Shown one piece after another: positions 5,520-15,361 of a stretch of DNA of 36,786 bases. Below the pieces are notes generated by a model, which ran no database searches, had not been told where the DNA came from, and saw only the letters and a program-made list of their open reading frames with translations. This DNA comes from Bacteroidota bacterium (GTDB lineage: Bacteria > Bacteroidota > Ignavibacteria > Palsa-1295). The stretch is taken from positions 86,612 through 123,397 of the forward strand of contig JAJPIO010000011.1 of NCBI GenBank assembly GCA_021324735.1, read 5' to 3'. Every line of letters begins with the position of its first letter. Position 1 is the stretch's first letter. Both the position numbers and the translations under genes were made by a program.

Positions 5520-8500
5520 CTAATGAATTTGGTCGATTTTCACGGTTTGCACTTGGCGGAGTCCGGAGGAAGTTGCGGTCTCGATCCGAACGAATGCCGG
5601 CCCGGTCTTCGGCAATAAGTGCTGTGATAATGCGAACGAATTAGCTCCTTTTTCGAGATTTGAACTCCATTCACCGGTTTCTTCACCATCTTCCCGATAC
5701 ACACGGACGGTCGCGTATACCGGATCTGCAGCTTGATATCCAATAGATACTGTTTGTTCTGTAGCATTGACCGGGTTAGGCCACACGTCAGACACTCGAA
5801 ATGTGATCGCCTCGTGCCGCATCATAGCACGGATCGTCGGGTCGCCACATTCATCGGCATAAGGTATCGAAAGCTTAAAACTTTGCAAATTATAGGCGCA
5901 AGGATGCTGAGCCCAGGTGAAGGTCGGCGTAACGGTAACTTCTGTGTCTGTTGTAAGGTACGCTCGCATCAATAAGCTCAGGAGCAAGTTGTTTGCAACC
6001 TTCGAGGAATCAGCAACCGAAGACCCGGTTACGATGATGGTAAACGTTCGCGTCGCCTGGTCCCAATGCGTGGTAAAAGTAAATGTTGAATCGCCTTTTA
6101 CGGCGAGCGCTCCCGTCGTATCGACACCAATAGGTTCGAAAAGATCGTTCGAAAATTGAAGCGAAAGCGTCCAGCTATTAAGCTCGGTCACTCCGGCACG
6201 CGGCCCTTCAACGGTGATCGGCAATCGTAATGCTGAAATGTCGTTAGCACTCGAAGCGTAGCTCGGCAAATGTGCGTAGAGCTTAAAAACACGCTGTTTT
6301 CGTATGACGGTAGCGAACATCGTATCTATGATCGGCGCTTCGCTTTTTCCCCGATGTTGATAGAGCCCGATTATAACTCGTTGGGGTCCATTCAACGAAT
6401 CGGGAGGAAAGGCGTAGCGAATTGGCAGATTGTAGGTACTATCCCCTGCAATAACGATCGGAAAGAGAAAGGTCTTCGGAATACTAAAACCGCCGGTATC
6501 GGATAAAAATATTGCGGTGTCGATCTGTATCGTAACCGGATATGGATTATGGATCGAGATCAGGCTCGTATGAGGATCGCACGTTGTGATCGTACCAAAG
6601 TCAACACTATCCTGATTGATCGGTCCGGTGCGTACGCTCGCTCGCAAAATGACCATCGGAAGTGTATCGCCTAACCGTTGTGGATAAAATCGATAACGCG
6701 TATCATTACGGACGAATACCGTATCGATAAAATCTCCTTCTTCGAAGGCATTGAAAGTGGCTGTCCCAGTGAGTGTAACCGCGGTATCGATCGATTCCTG
6801 GAGTATTCGAGTGGGCTTGTTCAGCACAACGTGAAAGTGTGCAGTATCGGAACATACGAGCGAATCGAGTTCGCCGATCATTGTACCAGCATTCGTCACT
6901 GTGAACGATTGGCTCGGCACGAGCGGGATCGTCGTATTTACGACGATCGTGTCAAAGTCGATAACTTTTGGCTGGACAAGCACGAGCGGTTCTACACCAA
7001 CACCGGTGAATACGTCGTGCAGCACTTCTCCATCTGTCGTATGAATTCGAACGGCAAGTTGCTTCTTTCCTAACGAGAGCGGATGAAATTGTATGGTGAA
7101 CGTTCGAATAGTATCCGGTCCCTGATATTCTAACGAAACTGGAAAATTTTTCTTGTTGGCAGGCGGGAATGAGTCGAGAACAACGGTAAAATCGGCAAGA
7201 CCTGTTGATAATGACTGATCGATCGTAACGCTATCGATAGCAGTGCTATCGGTACCTCGGTTTACGATCGCGACGGTATCAATAGATGAAGCATTTAGTA
7301 CGCGCAACGACCCGAAATCATGACCCGACGATACAACGATCGGATTAACACCGGTACCAATAAGAGTTACCGTTGGCGGATTGCTAAGACCCTGGACTGG
7401 ATCATCGCTAAAGATCGGAATATGTTCTACAAACTGCCCGAGCTTTGTTGGCAGATAATGCACAGAATCCACCACCGCGGTACCCGGCTGAAGTACAAGT
7501 TGTGCATTTTTCGAACCAAGATTTTGGGCCGTAAACTGATCGCTAACGATCGAATTTTGGTAAACAAGGTCCTGCAGTGTAAGCGGCGAGTTACCGGTAT
7601 CCTGAATGACGAACGCGCTATCTCGTTTGATGCCGAGCCGTACTCTCCCGAAATCGATCGTTAGTGGAAATACTTTAATGCGGGGCAGAAGTCCGCTGCC
7701 ACGCACATGTACGAAGACCGGATTAACGGCGTTCGACCATACGCGAAAAGTTGCGGCATACGGTCGGGTTTCATTCGGGTGAAATGTGATGGGTACAGTG
7801 AGTGTCGCGCCAGGAACGATGGCTTGTGGCTGGAAAGGGCTCTGTGGCAGATCGAAATTAAGTGTATCACCACTTACCCACTCGTAACCGTACACCAGCA
7901 CGGTATCCTTCTCCATCGGAGCGATGGATGTTTTTAGTGTGCTCGAAAGATTTTTTGTAGATGCTACGGAAATCGCCTTAAAATCGAGATCAGCTGCATA
8001 TAGGCTATCGACATACGCATAATCACCGCCGCCTGCGAATGTATAGGAATCCTGGTATCCGAATGCAAACGACTCGGCATAGCATGGTAGCGGGCTTTCA
8101 ATGCGCTGCTCTTCTGTGCCACAATTGAATATTCCGTATACGTAATTGGTCCCGGCGATGGGCGTCCACGGTCCAGTAAGCGCAGCACCGCTCAGCAAAG
8201 TAGTCGTTATCGCCGAGGCATCACACACAACAAGTATGTGGGGTTCGGCAAATACCGGCGTTCCGTTGAACGGATCGATCTCATTATCCCATCCTGGAAG
8301 AGTATAGTAATTACTAAAGAGATCAATAGGGCGGACCAACGTCATATCCGGATCGCCTTGTTTGTCGGCCGGCAGGTTACAGCTCTGCATAAAATCGGCA
8401 ACAAGAACCGGGACATCACTTTGAATAAAGGAAGCGGCACCCGACATGAAATCGTAGTACCCTCCCTTCGGCAATGTTGCGACTACCGTACCATTTACAC

Positions 8501-9542
8501 GAATATGCGCTCCATCCGCAGATGAGAGCACACGAATAAGATTTCCTCCAGCCGCACGTTTATTGTTGGCATCCTGACCGGAAGCAACTACGACGAACCT
8601 TGTACCCCATTGAGAAACAGGGATCAGCTGCTCCGCTAAATGATCTCGCGAAGGATCTTGAAATGTAAATTCAAGGCTGCTCGGTGTAGCGGCACGTTCG
8701 TGCCCACTGAACACTGCAATCGGCTTATCCGATATTATAGATGTACCGGTAAGGTCACAAGAGGGCGCGTTTACAGATGCAACATAATGGCCGGAATTAG
8801 CCGGCATCTGAACGCCGGTATCGCGCGCCATCACCATATATGTTTGGCCGCGTTTAAGAGTGATATTATATGTAATATTTGGTAATAAACTGCCAGAATA
8901 CGATGTCGCTGTTAACCTGATCGAAACATTCGTATTATCCTGTGTAGCTACGACAGCGAATTCGCTTCGAGGATTGACGCTGAAATCTGTTGGGTCATAA
9001 TTAACAGCGTTAGGCAAACTCATCACCATATAAACGGTACCCAACGATTGCACCGGATAGATCAAAAATCCATCGGAGCTTAAATAGTTATGTGCTAAGC
9101 CATAAACAGTGATCGTCTCATTGGAATAGATATGGACGACGTTCGAACGAGCAACTTCATAATCATTGCGTCCTAATCCGGCATTAATAGGGAGATCGAT
9201 TCTGGTAACAGTACCCGGAGAAACGACCACTGTTCTCTTGTACGTATTATTAAAAGTCTCGATCGTAACCTTTGTTGGTGCACGAGAGGAAATGAACAGT
9301 GAGCGTTCGGAATATTGTGTGTTCGTATCTGAACTTCCCACCACCGGCAAAAATGTCGCGTAGAATTCGGTACCAGCGGCACACCAGGAAGGAGAAGAGG
9401 CCGCCGCTGTTAACGGACGAAGTGTAAGCGCAAGAGCAAACGTTACAACAAGTGAAAGTAAACGGAGAGAGTAAAACGGCTTAGTGTTGCCGTTCTTGTA
9501 CGATAATTCTCTCTCCGTTTCCCACTCTTGGTATGTTAGCAC
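5520..9542 (-). CDS. Secreted giant IgGFc-binding-type protein with multiple ASH-like repeats and T9SS-like tail
   Basis: Largest of the three paralogs, 1340 residues. The start codon is GTG at 9542, only 3 bp after the stop of the upstream paralog, which suggests translational coupling. The first 27 residues are polar, then a hydrophobic stretch (RLLSLVVTFALALTL) forms a signal peptide; no internal ATG offers a shorter start. Residues about 55-500 are the IgGFc-binding N-terminal module (GTEFYATF, PIAVFSGHERAATP, PSRDHLAEQLIPVSQWG). About residues 510-1090 hold four or five choice-of-anchor D/ASH-type Ig repeats, each with an IDFG or HDFG-like strand (for example PLTIDFGRVRLG, HDFGSLRVLN, VDFGTITTCD). 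A cohesin-like sandwich follows (about 1100-1240), then a divergent T9SS type A-like tail beginning VWPNPVN. Expected to be cell-surface attached or released. Ligand unknown. Confidence 0.9.
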   Translation of the reverse strand: MLTYQEWETERELSYKNGNTKPFYSLRLLSLVVTFALALTLRPLTAAASSPSWCAAGTEFYATFLPVVGSSDTNTQYSERSLFISSRAPTKVTIETFNNTYKRTVVVSPGTVTRIDLPINAGLGRNDYEVARSNVVHIYSNETITVYGLAHNYLSSDGFLIYPVQSLGTVYMVMSLPNAVNYDPTDFSVNPRSEFAVVATQDNTNVSIRLTATSYSGSLLPNITYNITLKRGQTYMVMARDTGVQMPANSGHYVASVNAPSCDLTGTSIISDKPIAVFSGHERAATPSSLEFTFQDPSRDHLAEQLIPVSQWGTRFVVVASGQDANNKRAAGGNLIRVLSSADGAHIRVNGTVVATLPKGGYYDFMSGAASFIQSDVPVLVADFMQSCNLPADKQGDPDMTLVRPIDLFSNYYTLPGWDNEIDPFNGTPVFAEPHILVVCDASAITTTLLSGAALTGPWTPIAGTNYVYGIFNCGTEEQRIESPLPCYAESFAFGYQDSYTFAGGGDYAYVDSLYAADLDFKAISVASTKNLSSTLKTSIAPMEKDTVLVYGYEWVSGDTLNFDLPQSPFQPQAIVPGATLTVPITFHPNETRPYAATFRVWSNAVNPVFVHVRGSGLLPRIKVFPLTIDFGRVRLGIKRDSAFVIQDTGNSPLTLQDLVYQNSIVSDQFTAQNLGSKNAQLVLQPGTAVVDSVHYLPTKLGQFVEHIPIFSDDPVQGLSNPPTVTLIGTGVNPIVVSSGHDFGSLRVLNASSIDTVAIVNRGTDSTAIDSVTIDQSLSTGLADFTVVLDSFPPANKKNFPVSLEYQGPDTIRTFTIQFHPLSLGKKQLAVRIHTTDGEVLHDVFTGVGVEPLVLVQPKVIDFDTIVVNTTIPLVPSQSFTVTNAGTMIGELDSLVCSDTAHFHVVLNKPTRILQESIDTAVTLTGTATFNAFEEGDFIDTVFVRNDTRYRFYPQRLGDTLPMVILRASVRTGPINQDSVDFGTITTCDPHTSLISIHNPYPVTIQIDTAIFLSDTGGFSIPKTFLFPIVIAGDSTYNLPIRYAFPPDSLNGPQRVIIGLYQHRGKSEAPIIDTMFATVIRKQRVFKLYAHLPSYASSANDISALRLPITVEGPRAGVTELNSWTLSLQFSNDLFEPIGVDTTGALAVKGDSTFTFTTHWDQATRTFTIIVTGSSVADSSKVANNLLLSLLMRAYLTTDTEVTVTPTFTWAQHPCAYNLQSFKLSIPYADECGDPTIRAMMRHEAITFRVSDVWPNPVNATEQTVSIGYQAADPVYATVRVYREDGEETGEWSSNLEKGANSFALSQHLLPKTGPAFVRIETATSSGLRQVQTVKIDQIH

Positions 9543-9545
9543 TGT

Positions 9546-11669
9546 TTACTCACCGGCCACAATAGCCACGCGCTCCTTAATATTAAGTTTCTCTGAAGAG
9601 AGGATGCAGGTATAAAAACCTCTTGGAAGTCCGAAGCGCTCGATACGGATGCTGTATGGCCCCATCGCGAACTGCGAATTTGCTATGTGTCGAACTTCAC
9701 GACCCAGTTCATCATACAAGACGATATCGAGATCGCCGGAAGCCGGCATCGAAAAACTGATCGTCGTGTAAAGCGAAAATGGATTCGGCGATGCAGTCAC
9801 CCCCAGCACCGTCGGTGCTCCGGGGGTCACACCGGCTGCTGCATCCGGATAGAACGTAAAGTCGCGTTCGGCCGGCTCGAGATTGAACTGTGCTGCGGTA
9901 TGACTATAAATTTTTACCGTGCCGCGTATCGGATCGGAAAGCGCGCGATCAGTCACGAGATGTATCTGGGCCGTGCCACCAATATCTAAGCGCCCAATAT
10001 CACTTGCAACATCTTCCCTGAAGTGAATACCGGTCGGAAGTGTGCTGTTCGTTACAAAGACGGCGCTATCAAGATAGACTGGTGCATAACAAGTATTGCG
10101 GAAGTCGATCGTATTTCCATGATGCCCATTTTTTGCTTCGGGCGGATACTCGATGAAAAGAGCACGCTTTGGTACGAGCAAAGCGCCCGCCGTATAACCA
10201 TACGAAATAACGGGCCCCATGCCATAGCTTAGGATCGTAAATCCCTGATCCGGAGTGGATGTGCTCGTGATAACATTTGCGCCAGGTTTAAGTCCGGACC
10301 AATCCACAAACGCATAAGAATTACCATTATAGGTACCAGGCACCGTGGTAAATGCGGCAGCCGGTATTGGCGAACCGTTAAGCGTAATCGTCCCTTTCGA
10401 ACGCGCCTCCGTTGCAATGGCTAAGTGTTGGACGGCAAAAGCTGGGTCAGTGCTTGCAAAGAATGTAAAGTTATTATAGGACTGATCGACCGGAGGAACG
10501 AGCGCAAGCGAAGGATCGCCATTACCGCCGCCAGTAAACGAGGTATGGAAATACTCTCCAACCTGAAGAGGATTCGTACCCTGAACCAGAACGGGCTTAT
10601 GAATAAGTGAATCTGCGAATTGATTGCGATTCAACGTTACCCAATTCACACCGTTAACCGTAACGGTAGTATTGTCATCCAGCGCAAGGACCCGCATGAG
10701 GTCACCGCCGGGGTTCTTTGAACCATCATCTAAAACATCGACTGCATTCAGAACGAACGCATGTCCCCATACGCTTGTCGGCAGCATTGCCTCGAGTAGC
10801 ATATCGCGGCTGGTGTTACCTTGCGTATTGATAAAGCCAGCAGGGATTTCTGTGCGAGCATGACTACCGTATACCGCTACGGGATGGTTTGCGGATACCA
10901 TTGAACCGGTCAGATCGAGACCCGGAATACGCTGATCGGTTTGAAGCTGGACGCATTGGCCGCTTTGGAGTGTAACCTGGAACGGTACACCTGCGGCATG
11001 ACCGCCCAGCGTAGGCGCCGATGGCGTGAGTGTAACGATCGTATTATCTTCAAAAGCCGCTACAGCAAATTGTGATGGCAACCACGTGCTTGTATCAATT
11101 ACGGGATTTGTCGAATTCTGATATGAAAGAATTCGATAATCGGTACCGGAGGATTGGTGTGGCAGGGCGAGGAATGCGTCTGCGGAAAAGACTTTATAAT
11201 TCATTCCGTAGCACGCGATCGGCGCTGAAGACTGCACGCGTACAACCCGGTTATCGGTATCGCCATGACTGGTGATCCAGAGATCCCACAACGCTGGGTC
11301 ATTCGTAATGCGATACGTTTGAGATCCATTCGGCTGCAGTACGAACACTTTTTTGAAATTCGGATAACGGCGCGACGTGATCGTTACCGTATCAACATCG
11401 CCAAGCGAAGCCATATAGATCTCGATATAGGAACTATCACCAAAGGTTTGAGTCGGATCGATATTTTGTTCGAAGCAAAGAAGAAAATCGGTACCGCTGC
11501 TTTTCGGTGTACTGTTGGAGGTGACATCGCAATCGACACAATCGCCATTGGCAAACGAGCGATGAGGTGCGATCGCCAGTAACGCAACTACAAAGAGGAT
11601 CGTGAGCGCGAGGCTTGTTAGAGAACGATTGAAATTACCGGACATCCGTATCGGGCTTTTTGAATTCAT
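9546..11669 (-). CDS. Secreted IgGFc-binding-type protein with T9SS tail (first gene of the tandem set)
   Basis: Shortest paralog, 707 residues from ATG 11669. The frame is open 123 bp further upstream, but ATG 11669 is preferred: an AGGA sits 9 bases before it and the protein then starts with a charged n-region and one strong hydrophobic segment (SLALTILFVVALLAI) ending SFA. The IgGFc-binding N-terminal module fills about residues 40-500 (SSGTDFLLCFEQ, PVAVYGSHARTEIPAG, TSRDMLLEAMLPTSVWG). A single short Ig-like region follows (TIDFRNTCYAPVYLDS), then a T9SS type A sorting domain (ASPNPFSLYTTISF to ERVAIVAGE). A CVDCD cysteine pair just after the signal is peculiar to this copy. It heads the minus-strand run that continues through the two larger paralogs to comEC. 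Confidence 0.9.
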   Translation of the reverse strand: MNSKSPIRMSGNFNRSLTSLALTILFVVALLAIAPHRSFANGDCVDCDVTSNSTPKSSGTDFLLCFEQNIDPTQTFGDSSYIEIYMASLGDVDTVTITSRRYPNFKKVFVLQPNGSQTYRITNDPALWDLWITSHGDTDNRVVRVQSSAPIACYGMNYKVFSADAFLALPHQSSGTDYRILSYQNSTNPVIDTSTWLPSQFAVAAFEDNTIVTLTPSAPTLGGHAAGVPFQVTLQSGQCVQLQTDQRIPGLDLTGSMVSANHPVAVYGSHARTEIPAGFINTQGNTSRDMLLEAMLPTSVWGHAFVLNAVDVLDDGSKNPGGDLMRVLALDDNTTVTVNGVNWVTLNRNQFADSLIHKPVLVQGTNPLQVGEYFHTSFTGGGNGDPSLALVPPVDQSYNNFTFFASTDPAFAVQHLAIATEARSKGTITLNGSPIPAAAFTTVPGTYNGNSYAFVDWSGLKPGANVITSTSTPDQGFTILSYGMGPVISYGYTAGALLVPKRALFIEYPPEAKNGHHGNTIDFRNTCYAPVYLDSAVFVTNSTLPTGIHFREDVASDIGRLDIGGTAQIHLVTDRALSDPIRGTVKIYSHTAAQFNLEPAERDFTFYPDAAAGVTPGAPTVLGVTASPNPFSLYTTISFSMPASGDLDIVLYDELGREVRHIANSQFAMGPYSIRIERFGLPRGFYTCILSSEKLNIKERVAIVAGE

Positions 11670-11901
11670 AGCGTAGGGTCCTATAAGAGTTAAAGATATC
11701 GCATGAATGAGGTTCGACCCAAAAGATCGACTTCCTTCATCCGTGCGGACCGACAGTCGCGAAAATACGACATTTGAAAGCAGAATCGCCAATGTGTGAT
11801 TGCCGATGAGCGACCAAATGAAATATCACTCGAACATGAGTCACTCGTACCTGACATATCAGGAAGACACATGAGGCTAAAAAAAGTAACTTTTCAAATA
11901 T

Positions 11902-12381: not shown

Positions 12382-12751
12382 TATGAGCTTTTGTTACAGG
12401 TCGAAAGAAAAATGGCCTTCTTCCTTTCGTTTCCCATAGAAGATATATATCTAAAAATGACCCTATATCACTTGTAACTTCTCCCCTCGGGCCGTGTTTT
12501 TTCAGGGAATGGCATTACCGCGGACGCTCAACCGGCAGGCAACCGGACCGGACTTAGGAGTCCGGAGATCGTCGCCTGCTTCCCAGTCCGGAATCGTATC
12601 CACCGTTGCCGCAGGTGTGCCAGCCCCTTTGAACGACGCAGTGCAGCCCAACTCTCGTGAATCGAAGCTCGGTTCTCATAATCGTTCACATCGAACGGAG
12701 TCTTCGCTTCGCACCGAGCGCAAGGAGGCCTTCACTCGGTATGCGGCGGCA
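12382..12751 (+). other. Divergent control region and leader of the ECF sigma gene
   Basis: This 370-bp stretch separates dtd from the first residue of recognisable sigma-factor domain. From 12494 it is open in frame with the sigma gene, but the encoded residues are low-complexity (Ser/Arg/Pro-rich) and match no sigma region, so I treat it as probable leader. It contains the nested hairpin at 12535-12579 and a strong AAGGAGG at 12722-12728. That motif is 12 bases before a five-codon frame, ATGCGGCGGCAATGA (12741-12755), whose stop overlaps the sigma ATG at 12752. This resembles a translational-coupling leader, but that is inference. Near 12441-12460 the DNA is AT-rich (GATATATATCT) and may hold promoters for both directions. 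Confidence 0.4.
12535..12579 (+). promoter_or_regulatory. Nested perfect hairpin in sigma-gene leader
   Basis: Outer stem GCAGGC (12535-12540) pairs with GCCTGC (12574-12579); inner stem CCGGACT (12548-12554) pairs with AGTCCGG (12559-12565) around a TAGG loop. All 13 pairs are perfect. A third copy of AGTCCGG occurs at 12584-12590 and could compete for the inner stem, giving an alternative fold. No T-run follows, so it is not an intrinsic terminator. I do not recognise it as a known riboswitch class. Confidence 0.5.
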
Positions 12752-13321
12752 ATGAATGATGGCATTGCATCGCTATCGGATGCCGAACTGCTCGTGCGAT
12801 TTCGCGAACACGGTGACGAACGGGCATTTGCTGAGTTATATGAGCGGCATAAATCGGAGATCTATACCTATTGCCTCCGAATGATGGGAGGCGACCGGGA
12901 TAAAGCGAGCGACGTCTTTCAGGAAGTGTTTATTAAGGCCTTCGAAAAGGCCGAGCAATTTCGGAGCGGGACAAATGTCGTCGGGTGGATCTATATGATC
13001 GCTCGAAATATGTGCCTTAATGCGATCCGCAATGAGCGACCCTGCGAAAAATTAGAGGAACAAACGCGGTTGGAATCGTTCGACCGAAGCCTCGCTCCGG
13101 AGTATAATGAGGAGCAGCATTTTCTTCGCCGAAAATTAGAAGAGGCGCTTCAATCATTGCCGGTAGAATTTCGTGAACCGTTCATATTACGGGAATTCGA
13201 TGGCTTCAGTTATCGAGAGATCGCTACGATGACCGGCACAACACTGGGGATGACAAAAGTTAGGATTTATCGTGCAAAACAGCGCATGCGTGAATTACTC
13301 TCGAACGAACTTGCAATGTGA
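12752..13321 (+). CDS. ECF-type RNA polymerase sigma factor
   Basis: Directs RNA polymerase to an alternative promoter set, probably for envelope or surface stress given its partners. From ATG 12752 the protein has 189 residues, the normal ECF length; a start at 12494 would add 86 residues with no domain. Sigma region 2 runs from LLVRFREHGDERAFAELYERH to GWIYMIARNMCLNAIRN and includes DVFQEVFIKAFEKAEQF. Region 4 includes LEEALQSLPVEFREPFILRE and the helix-turn-helix FSYREIATMTGTTLGMTKVRIYRA. The regulator gene follows 37 bp downstream on the same strand. The family is certain; the start and the regulon are not. Confidence 0.9.
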   Translation: MNDGIASLSDAELLVRFREHGDERAFAELYERHKSEIYTYCLRMMGGDRDKASDVFQEVFIKAFEKAEQFRSGTNVVGWIYMIARNMCLNAIRNERPCEKLEEQTRLESFDRSLAPEYNEEQHFLRRKLEEALQSLPVEFREPFILREFDGFSYREIATMTGTTLGMTKVRIYRAKQRMRELLSNELAM

Positions 13322-13358: not shown

Positions 13359-14654
13359 ATGATAGTGGAAGATAAAATACTCGCATATTTAGATGGTTCG
13401 CTGGGCGAACAGGAGAGCGAAGAGCTCCTGGAGACGCTTGCTGTGAGCCCGGAAAAGCGAGCATTGCTGGAAGAGCATTTACGCTTAAAAGATATTCTTG
13501 CGCTCGGCAAGAAAGCGTATAGCGTACCGCTCGAAACAGAGCGTGCCTTGGCGGAGCGGTTGCCAGCTCTTGCAGGACGCGGAAAACTGGCGCCACTCGC
13601 TCGAACGCCATTCTCCGGCCTTACTCGGTGGATGGCTACCCATCCGTTCCGAACGAGCATGGGAGTAGGCGCCTTCGCGCTTCTCGCCGGACTTACTTTC
13701 TTCGCTGTTCGATCGAACATTATTGAGAGTACAACTGCAAACACATCACGGAATTTCGCCGCAACTCGGAATAACTTACAGGTCACGCATCAATATGATG
13801 TAGCGCAAAGCCAGTTGCAGCAGCCAGATTTGCCTATAAATAATATTCACAGGAATTTAGCTGCTACTAATAGGCCTCAAAGCGTACAGCAGGCGCCTGC
13901 CAACCCTACGCTTAATTCGGGTAACGAGCCGATACAAAGCACATCTGTTAGTAACGATCACTCTGAAGAAGCTTCTCTCTCTTCCGTAAAGAGTTACGAT
14001 CAGGCTATCGCCATTCCTGGGACCGCGATAGCACATACACTACACGAGATCGCGCTCGGCGGACCGGCTGGCATTCATCCATTATCACTCGGCGTGAATG
14101 GTTTACTCGGCGCGGCGTACTTGCCTCAACTTTCTACACTACCATCCCCGGCTACACAATTTACGAGTCCGCTTGCACTTACTTTCGATTGGGACATCAC
14201 ACCCAATTTTGCAATTGGCCTCGAAGCCGGTGAGATCCTTCGCGCAACGATGGTACAACGTGTCGATTCATCGGCGCCCGTTGGCTACACCGATTATAGT
14301 CATATATTTTATTCGAGTTCGTTCACTCAGGATATAGCATATTACGGCTCGATCACGCTACACTATACGATTGCTCCAGAGAGTGACTGGCCGATTCGAA
14401 TTGGTGTTGCACCTGGCATGACGCTCAACGGAGAAGGAACGCTCATCGGTACTATCGGTGTGTCACGAGTTCTGACATCGAGCCTTGTATTCGATATGAA
14501 CCTGACAGCAGGACGTATATTCGGTACACCGGTGCAATCCACTTCCTCGACTTCCACCAATGGTATTGTTGGCACCGTTCACAACAATGGTTTTGCACCG
14601 ACCACGTATACCTCGCTCGTAGGTCTGCGCGCAGGCCTGCGCTACCGTATATGA
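13359..14654 (+). CDS. Anti-sigma-like membrane protein with C-terminal beta-barrel-like domain
   Basis: 431 residues directly after the ECF sigma gene. Residues 1-60 are an acidic helical cytoplasmic segment typical of anti-sigma N-termini (ILAYLDGSLGEQESEELLE), but lacking the HxxxCxxC zinc motif of the ZAS class. One transmembrane helix lies at about 99-117 (TSMGVGAFALLAGLTFFAV). A 125-residue Gln/Asn/Pro/Ser-rich linker follows, and then about 190 residues of alternating beta-strands (LALTFDWDITPNFAIGLEAG, SITLHYTIAP, VGLRAGLRYRI at the very end) that look like a small outer-membrane-barrel or similar antiparallel fold. A sensor half of this kind joined to an anti-sigma half is unusual. 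Its stop overlaps the next ATG by 4 bp. The anti-sigma role is inferred from position and topology. Confidence 0.72.
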   Translation: MIVEDKILAYLDGSLGEQESEELLETLAVSPEKRALLEEHLRLKDILALGKKAYSVPLETERALAERLPALAGRGKLAPLARTPFSGLTRWMATHPFRTSMGVGAFALLAGLTFFAVRSNIIESTTANTSRNFAATRNNLQVTHQYDVAQSQLQQPDLPINNIHRNLAATNRPQSVQQAPANPTLNSGNEPIQSTSVSNDHSEEASLSSVKSYDQAIAIPGTAIAHTLHEIALGGPAGIHPLSLGVNGLLGAAYLPQLSTLPSPATQFTSPLALTFDWDITPNFAIGLEAGEILRATMVQRVDSSAPVGYTDYSHIFYSSSFTQDIAYYGSITLHYTIAPESDWPIRIGVAPGMTLNGEGTLIGTIGVSRVLTSSLVFDMNLTAGRIFGTPVQSTSSTSTNGIVGTVHNNGFAPTTYTSLVGLRAGLRYRI

Positions 14655-15361
14655 CAGTAAAACTACCGGCTTTTCTTTCTGTCATCGTTCTTGGAGCGAT
14701 CATGTATAGTTGCTCGCAACCGATCGATCCGCCAAGTGCATCGATCGGCGCGCCGTTCCAGGCCCAGGATTTTTTCTGGCAAGGACCAAACCTTCAGCGA
14801 GGCATCGATTACAATGTCATTCGCAATGGCGCACCACAGGAACATATACTCACCTCGCAAGACAATATCCACGTTTACGATGCGGCTACCAATGGCGTGG
14901 CGCTAAAACGGACCGGCACCGCCGATTCTATTCTTATAGATAGTATGGGCGCAAATTCAATCTTTAGTTTGCCGGCAGGATATTTTTTTGGTAAAGATTC
15001 TGCACGAGGAAGCTTACTGCTTCTTTACCGACCACAAATGGATTCCGGCAAGACATGGAATGCCGGTACCTTATCCGGGCCGGGACTAACGAGCGGCGTA
15101 CCCATCATTGCGCGTGTGCTAGACCGTGATGATACGCTTCACATTCCGCCTGTTCGCGCCGGAGCAGATAGTGTTTTTGGCGACTCTTTCCGTATTGCTT
15201 ATACACCCATGATCGGTACTGATACACTACAGACCGCACCATTTTATTGGGTAGTTTATTTTGCAAAGAATGTCGGTCCGGTCCTGATCGAGCAGTTGTC
15301 CTACAAATATGACATGAGATATACCTTGGGCGACCAGGCCCAGCTTATTCGTCGCTTTTAG
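14651..15361 (+). CDS. Predicted lipoprotein, third gene of sigma-factor operon
   Basis: 236 residues with a type II signal: a hydrophobic segment (FLSVIVLGAIMYSC) ends in a lipobox with Cys21 as the modified residue, followed by Ser and Gln. The rest is mainly beta-rich with no family I recognise. Phrases such as FSLPAGYFFGKDS and FYWVVYFAKNVGPV recall generic periplasmic lipoprotein folds. ATG 14651 overlaps the anti-sigma stop (ATGA), so the two are translated together, and the product probably works in the same sensing path at the outer membrane. Function unknown. Confidence 0.8.
   Translation: MTVKLPAFLSVIVLGAIMYSCSQPIDPPSASIGAPFQAQDFFWQGPNLQRGIDYNVIRNGAPQEHILTSQDNIHVYDAATNGVALKRTGTADSILIDSMGANSIFSLPAGYFFGKDSARGSLLLLYRPQMDSGKTWNAGTLSGPGLTSGVPIIARVLDRDDTLHIPPVRAGADSVFGDSFRIAYTPMIGTDTLQTAPFYWVVYFAKNVGPVLIEQLSYKYDMRYTLGDQAQLIRRF

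Follow-up and report, generated by a model that had tools for sequence, protein, structure and literature searches.

The window, meaning the whole 36,786-nt stretch analysed here, belongs to a genome of 3.55 Mb assembled in 19 contigs, and carries on the + strand three neighbouring genes encoding, in order, an ECF sigma factor, a 431-aa putative dual-membrane anti-sigma factor, and a candidate lipoprotein. The sigma gene (12509..13321, ~270 aa) matches Pfam Sigma70_r2 (2.3e-15) and r4_2 (9.9e-15), as well as TIGR02937 (2.9e-29), and its identification from these domains is certain. The central gene (13359..14654) has an ATG start and is joined to the downstream 236-aa ORF (14651..15361) by the ATGA overlap already reported in the initial annotation. 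The start of the sigma gene has been moved to the ATG at 12509 because a conserved promoter stands immediately before it. The deduced N-terminus (MALPRTL...) fits ortholog starts, while a GTG at 12494, sitting inside the conserved -10-like element, was discarded as initiator. Thus delimited, the sigma factor features an N-terminal extension of ~85 residues before region 2 (window 12509-12770), which is similar in length and poorly conserved in sequence in the closest orthologs.

No confident domain was found in the central protein by searching Pfam and NCBIfam. At the C-terminus NCBIfam gave a single match, a weak one (E 0.049) to PorG of the T9SS, and this kinship was set aside. The organization of the protein emerges rather from an AlphaFold2 model based on a 37-row alignment. 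The N-terminal region (residues 1-72, 13359..13574) is predicted to fold into four helices, spanning residues 3-11, 17-29, 31-51 and 58-67 (mean block pLDDT 79-97). RseA_N and zf-HC2 matches in the heads of several family members, along with the modelled helices, support the anti-sigma assignment made in the initial annotation; a match to RseA in PDB is weak (HMMER, E 0.72), and restricted to positions 20-48. Class I anti-sigma domains (ASDI) consist of three helices plus a fourth one, nearly half of them lack the zinc motif HxxxCxxC, and a conserved helix-1 residue, Asp11 in RseA, contacts sigma4 (PMC7406223). The same helix layout is seen in the model, and none of the 37 family members carries a Cys/His zinc motif in the head, which is thus predicted to be a zinc-less, RseA-like class I domain. 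The Asp12-Gly13 pair in helix 1 is invariant in 25 aligned heads, and Asp12 would be, in our reading, the counterpart of RseA Asp11. One hydrophobic helix follows (residues 96-118, 13644..13712, from hydrophobicity and the AlphaFold2 model), corresponding to the single inner-membrane helix previously proposed. It leads to a putative periplasmic tether (residues 119-241, 13713..14081), a low-complexity region made for 62% of P/S/T/A/G/N/Q residues and modelled as disordered (pLDDT <50 over 118-218 and 220-234), in line with the flexible linker earlier envisaged.

The remaining part of the chain (residues 242-431, 14082..14651) comprises the ~190 residues of alternating strands, ending in GLRYRI, which had been described as a possible barrel. 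In the AlphaFold2 model the strands (242-254, 265-279, 284-305, 313-338, 346-355, 360-371, 376-389, 416-430) close into an eight-stranded barrel, mostly in blocks with pLDDT 81-98, a weaker stretch (60-72) being confined to ~391-410. Foldseek and VIA-align, whose rows for the protein cover almost only residues 235-431, retrieved OmpA, NspA, OprF, PagL and OmpW at Z 15-17. The fold is the same as that of the OmpA, NspA, OprF and PagL barrels, although identity is as low as ~9-15%, and the barrel is joined here to a cytoplasmic anti-sigma domain. Hydrophobic faces alternate in most strands, the pattern being unclear in 360-371, and the even number of strands would place both barrel ends on the same side, as a periplasmic tether requires. 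The C-terminal part is therefore predicted to have the fold of a transmembrane barrel, plausibly inserted in the outer membrane. The initial annotation regarded a soluble periplasmic beta-sandwich as the simpler alternative, and the window protein itself has indeed no Pfam barrel match. Yet, the closed barrel modelled at high pLDDT, the outer-membrane barrels found as top fold matches, the weak OMP_b-brl and PagL Pfam matches of relatives, and the OMP-like terminal motifs (YRF, FHF, WHF) of many homologs make a soluble sandwich extremely improbable.

The product of the third gene is devoid of confident Pfam or NCBIfam domains as well, and is predicted to adopt a YmcC/RseB/LolA-like half-barrel fold (model pLDDT 86). 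The closest solved structures are BF2203 (3fzx, Z 10.4) and BDI_3050 (4fvs, Z 10.3), exported or lipoproteins with a YmcC-like fold. RseB (2v42) and YmcC follow at Z 7.4, and MucB (6in8, Z 6.8) and LolA (about 5-6) match more weakly; values of Z <8, including that of RseB, may reflect a mere shared arrangement. The gene is kept next to the four closest orthologs of the fusion, at 40-52% identity, which agrees with the suggestion that the lipoprotein is a third component of the system. A putative lipid-anchor residue, Cys21, is invariant in all the 14 sequences aligned. At 11 further loci the lipoprotein is longer (~500-650 aa), and hosts a beta-propeller, matching YCF48-like and designed propellers, inserted between its two halves. 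RseB and MucB are soluble periplasmic proteins, in which a LolA-like N-terminal domain is followed by a second C-terminal domain. The lipoprotein features in contrast one LolA/YmcC-like domain, in addition to the putative anchor. The rpoE-rseA-rseB gene order is well established. Since the succession of sigma, anti-sigma and RseB-like protein repeats it, an RseB-like role is proposed as the most likely one for the lipoprotein.

Matches to the fusion protein were found in all the same-genus and same-family genomes searched. Six places, itself included, were detected in its own genome at E ~1e-6 or better, and most of the other genomes host 4-7 places each; the two genomes with only 1 and 2 places are 67% complete. 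Of the twelve same-family genomes covered by the search, most contain multiple copies. As many as 37 aligned homologs share head, TM helix, tether and a C-terminal part of ~160-250 aa. They range in size from 394 to 604 aa, their most hydrophobic window begins at residues 92-134, and the tether spans 113-271 aa (median 145); a likeness of this extent among 37 sequences indicates that the fused architecture is not a product of chance. Comparing 40 neighbourhoods of homologous loci, an ECF sigma gene was found directly upstream at all those examined except L055, which begins at a contig end. The coupling to a sigma gene put forward in the initial annotation is hence conserved, and the complete order sigma, fusion, lipoprotein, sought in related genomes, recurs in the four closest orthologs. 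In the genome of origin there are 28 ECF-type sigma matches, six of which are followed by this fusion architecture. Six fusion proteins within one genome suggest that a whole layer of outer-membrane surveillance may operate in these bacteria.

Four sigma partners in the same genome (L149, L154, L159 and L164; 204-270 aa) lack the barrel and are still matched by the family profiles, three of the four by the head profile; they may serve as natural siblings to compare the role of the barrel. Other ECF partners in the genome (L167:377-1444, L169:2036-3046, L171:425-1414; 329-355 aa) have a shorter head, a TM helix at ~residue 43-53 and barrel-like ends. The sigmas of these three loci, together with those of L166 and L170, form a separate starred clade, and the three proteins may be dual-membrane factors of a second type encoded by this genome.

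A promoter-like element (12473..12502, + strand) is located upstream of the sigma gene. It includes a -35-like TGTAACTT (12473-12480), a 13-nt spacer and a -10-like GTGTTTTTT (12494-12502), which ends 6 nt before the ATG, making the transcript near-leaderless. The element was recognised by reading orthologs side by side: TGTAACTT-N13-GTGTTTTT precedes, with identical spacing, the sigma gene in the window and in all the four closest orthologs, and variant forms precede several paralog sigmas. Searching the sequences upstream of the sigmas with a generic ECF promoter pattern (GGAAC/TGAAC/GTAAC...CGT/TCTG) gave hardly any match. The conserved pattern occurs once in the window, and in none of 100 shuffles; weak sites with 3 mismatches occur within the window at chance level. 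Allowing up to 1 mismatch, five genomes of the genus contain 50 sites, and the reversed control yields 4 (p 2e-11). A signal peptide or a lipobox is found at the start of 37 of the 41 readable target genes, and of 27-35% of background ORFs, as judged by a simple home-made hydrophobicity rule applied in the same way to targets and background. At readable exact-match sites the figure is 7 out of 7. The distance between the -10-like element and the ATG has a median of 20 nt at target genes. The conserved promoter, and the finding that related sites precede mostly genes for exported proteins or lipoproteins, are new to this work.

Putative targets include lipoproteins, T9SS-tail proteins, a META lipoprotein, IgGFc-binding-domain, kelch and BNR proteins, and an OmpA-domain protein. 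The latter recurs in three genomes (G001, G002, G005), an LVIVD lipoprotein in two (G001, G006), and so does a CarboxypepD_reg lipoprotein (G000, G005). In G003 and G004, two genomes with no close ortholog, 6 motif sites each occur at up to 1 mismatch. Paralogous sigmas must thus share the motif in part, and the regulon is not assignable to this sigma alone. Exact matches are rarer in the same two genomes (1 and 0, respectively), and sites with a GTGTTCT or GTGTTAT -10 are the likely ones of the window sigma. In the outgroups G013, G023 and G034 the 1-mismatch motif occurs at, or little above, the control level. In G041, a more distant member of the class, a TGTAACTTT...GTGTT[TAC]T motif was counted 8 times against 1 in the control, a hint that promoters of this kind predate the genus. 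On the (-) strand of the window, two neighbouring genes (5520-9542 and 9546-11792) encode large exported proteins with IgGFc_binding domains, and the genes located 3' of motif sites include IgGFc-related ones in G000 (L255) and in G002 (L263). Upstream of the two window genes there are only 3-mismatch sites, at chance level.

The system is real and well conserved, and quite probably works as an envelope-stress switch made of sigma factor, dual-membrane anti-sigma factor and lipoprotein. The sigma factors of related systems become active when the anti-sigma is lost (PMC13088901, PMC9308784). In the model proposed, the RseA-like head (residues 1-72) would hold the ECF sigma at the inner membrane, and the TM helix would be continued by the disordered tether, crossing the periplasm up to the OmpA-like eight-stranded barrel seated in the outer membrane. 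As long as the barrel is well seated and the envelope intact, the sigma would stay bound. Faults of the outer membrane or of the barrel, such as mis-assembly, damage or a ligand, may alter the tension or the exposure of the tether; a worm-like-chain estimate with assumed parameters, offered as an idea only, gives 4-10 pN for a 124-aa tether stretched over 15-25 nm. Tether or TM helix would then probably be cut by a periplasmic protease, and next by an RseP-type M50 protease, to release the sigma. Two M50 proteases are encoded in the genome, but such enzymes occur in all 14 control genomes too, and are hence uninformative. The freed sigma would transcribe its own operon from TGTAACTT-N13-GTGTTTTT, as well as genes for exported, lipoprotein and outer-membrane products. 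The lipoprotein, given its RseB/LolA-like fold and rseB position, may bind the tether and tune its cleavage.

Different functions may be imagined for the barrel. It could be a cell-surface receptor, the outer loops of which bind a ligand or partner (a glycan, a toxin, a surface or outer-membrane protein), the tether relaying the signal inward, as if a FecA/FecR pair had been fused in one chain. The length of strands 3-4 (284-305, 313-338), the 4-7 paralogs that most of the family's complete genomes carry, and the wide divergence of paralog sequences (mean column identity 19%), expected if ligands differ, speak for a receptor. An eight-stranded barrel has however neither transport lumen nor plug, no specific ligand is hinted at by the locus, and envelope damage is what the counterpart in Phocaeicola responds to (PMC9308784), so that a receptor function is unlikely, though not negligible. 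The fusion might alternatively be dissolved by proteolysis, the chain being cut during biogenesis into barrel and anti-sigma as two separate proteins, with nothing spanning both membranes. Some FecR-type anti-sigma factors are cleaved, and a disordered low-complexity tether is an easy protease target. Against this, the two halves are still fused in 37 homologs, and the tether shows no conserved cleavage motif; a split of this sort is distinctly improbable.

The initial annotation considered the anti-sigma/barrel fusion unusual for Bacteroidota. This has to be revised, as barrel-bearing anti-sigma factors spanning both membranes are already known from gut Bacteroides and from Phocaeicola (PMC13088901, PMC9308784). 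Similar proteins are common in Bacteroidia. Dma proteins, found only in Bacteroidota, combine an anti-sigma domain, a TM helix, a disordered tether and a C-terminal barrel, and are encoded with an ECF21 sigma; homology of the head is not among the defining criteria (PMC13088901). The same layout is seen in Phocaeicola, where loss of the anti-sigma sets off a protective response, envelope stress being its probable trigger (PMC9308784). The system in the window is a variant of this recently described kind. The protein shows the sigma-binding N-terminal region, TM helix, long disordered tether and C-terminal barrel of Dma architecture, the barrel being predicted by the AlphaFold2 model and the fold search, and the adjacent cognate sigma gene typical of Dma is kept at all the loci examined apart from the one at a contig end. 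As with Dma2, the genes are part of a three-gene operon. Differences are manifest as well. The head is RseA-like, four-helical and ~72 aa long in the window protein, short and unrelated-looking in the Dma-like proteins of Bacteroidia; the third gene encodes a lipoprotein with a predicted RseB/LolA-like fold, whereas BT_1557 has been described solely as a protein of unknown function; and the system comes from another class of the phylum, with its sigma located elsewhere in the tree. Compared with RpoE-RseA-RseB of E. coli and AlgU-MucA-MucB of Pseudomonas, the order sigma, anti-sigma, periplasmic modulator is the same, heads are zinc-less and of class I, and RseB and MucB are related in fold to the third protein. 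RseA and MucA have, unlike the fusion, short periplasmic tails without a barrel, and RseB is a soluble two-domain protein instead of a single-domain lipoprotein. The range of dual-membrane anti-sigma factors thereby grows beyond Bacteroidia to include a further class of the phylum, and the head is of a type whose sigma-binding mode is understood from RseA. The candidate third component and the readable promoter make signal, release step and regulon testable.

How the fusion arose is a separate question. Descent from a common ancestor with the Bacteroidia Dma proteins, the head having been replaced or having diverged beyond recognition, would make the window protein a member of the Dma ortholog group, and is compatible with the envelope-stress switch. 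Comparisons were made with 15 Bacteroidia proteins that are Dma-like by architecture, and are not Dma1 and Dma2 themselves. The barrels of the window family and of this set align by profile (E 9e-6), which favours common descent; the likeness could however be due to generic OMP_b-brl ancestry, and between the heads the alignment is limited to 11 residues of the TM helix (E 2.6e-3). In a tree of 88 sigmas, those of Bacteroidia Dma type make up one starred clade (100/99). All the window-type sigmas but one fall in another starred clade (98/86), beside sigmas of barrel-less anti-sigma factors, which again argues against straight descent. Holding both groups together is not significantly worse than the free tree by the AU test (p-AU 0.0723). 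On these alignments and trees an independent origin is favoured rather than demonstrated, and descent from an ancestor shared with Dma is less likely. A wider scenario, which we put forward tentatively and rate slightly short of an even chance, is that Bacteroidota evolved dual-membrane anti-sigma factors on more than one occasion. An rpoE-rseA-rseB-like operon would have captured an outer-membrane barrel independently of Dma/Das, and given rise to several envelope sensors working side by side in a genome, every one with a related promoter controlling exported proteins; the stretched tether may itself act as a sensor.

One member of the Dma-like comparison set, found in a Bacteroidia genome (L135:1504-2718), has an ECF sigma gene upstream. 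Its head and TM helix are Dma-like, but the place of the barrel is taken by two PKD domains and a CHU_C T9SS sorting domain. By its domain composition, the product appears to be a membrane-anchored anti-sigma factor endowed with a T9SS signal.
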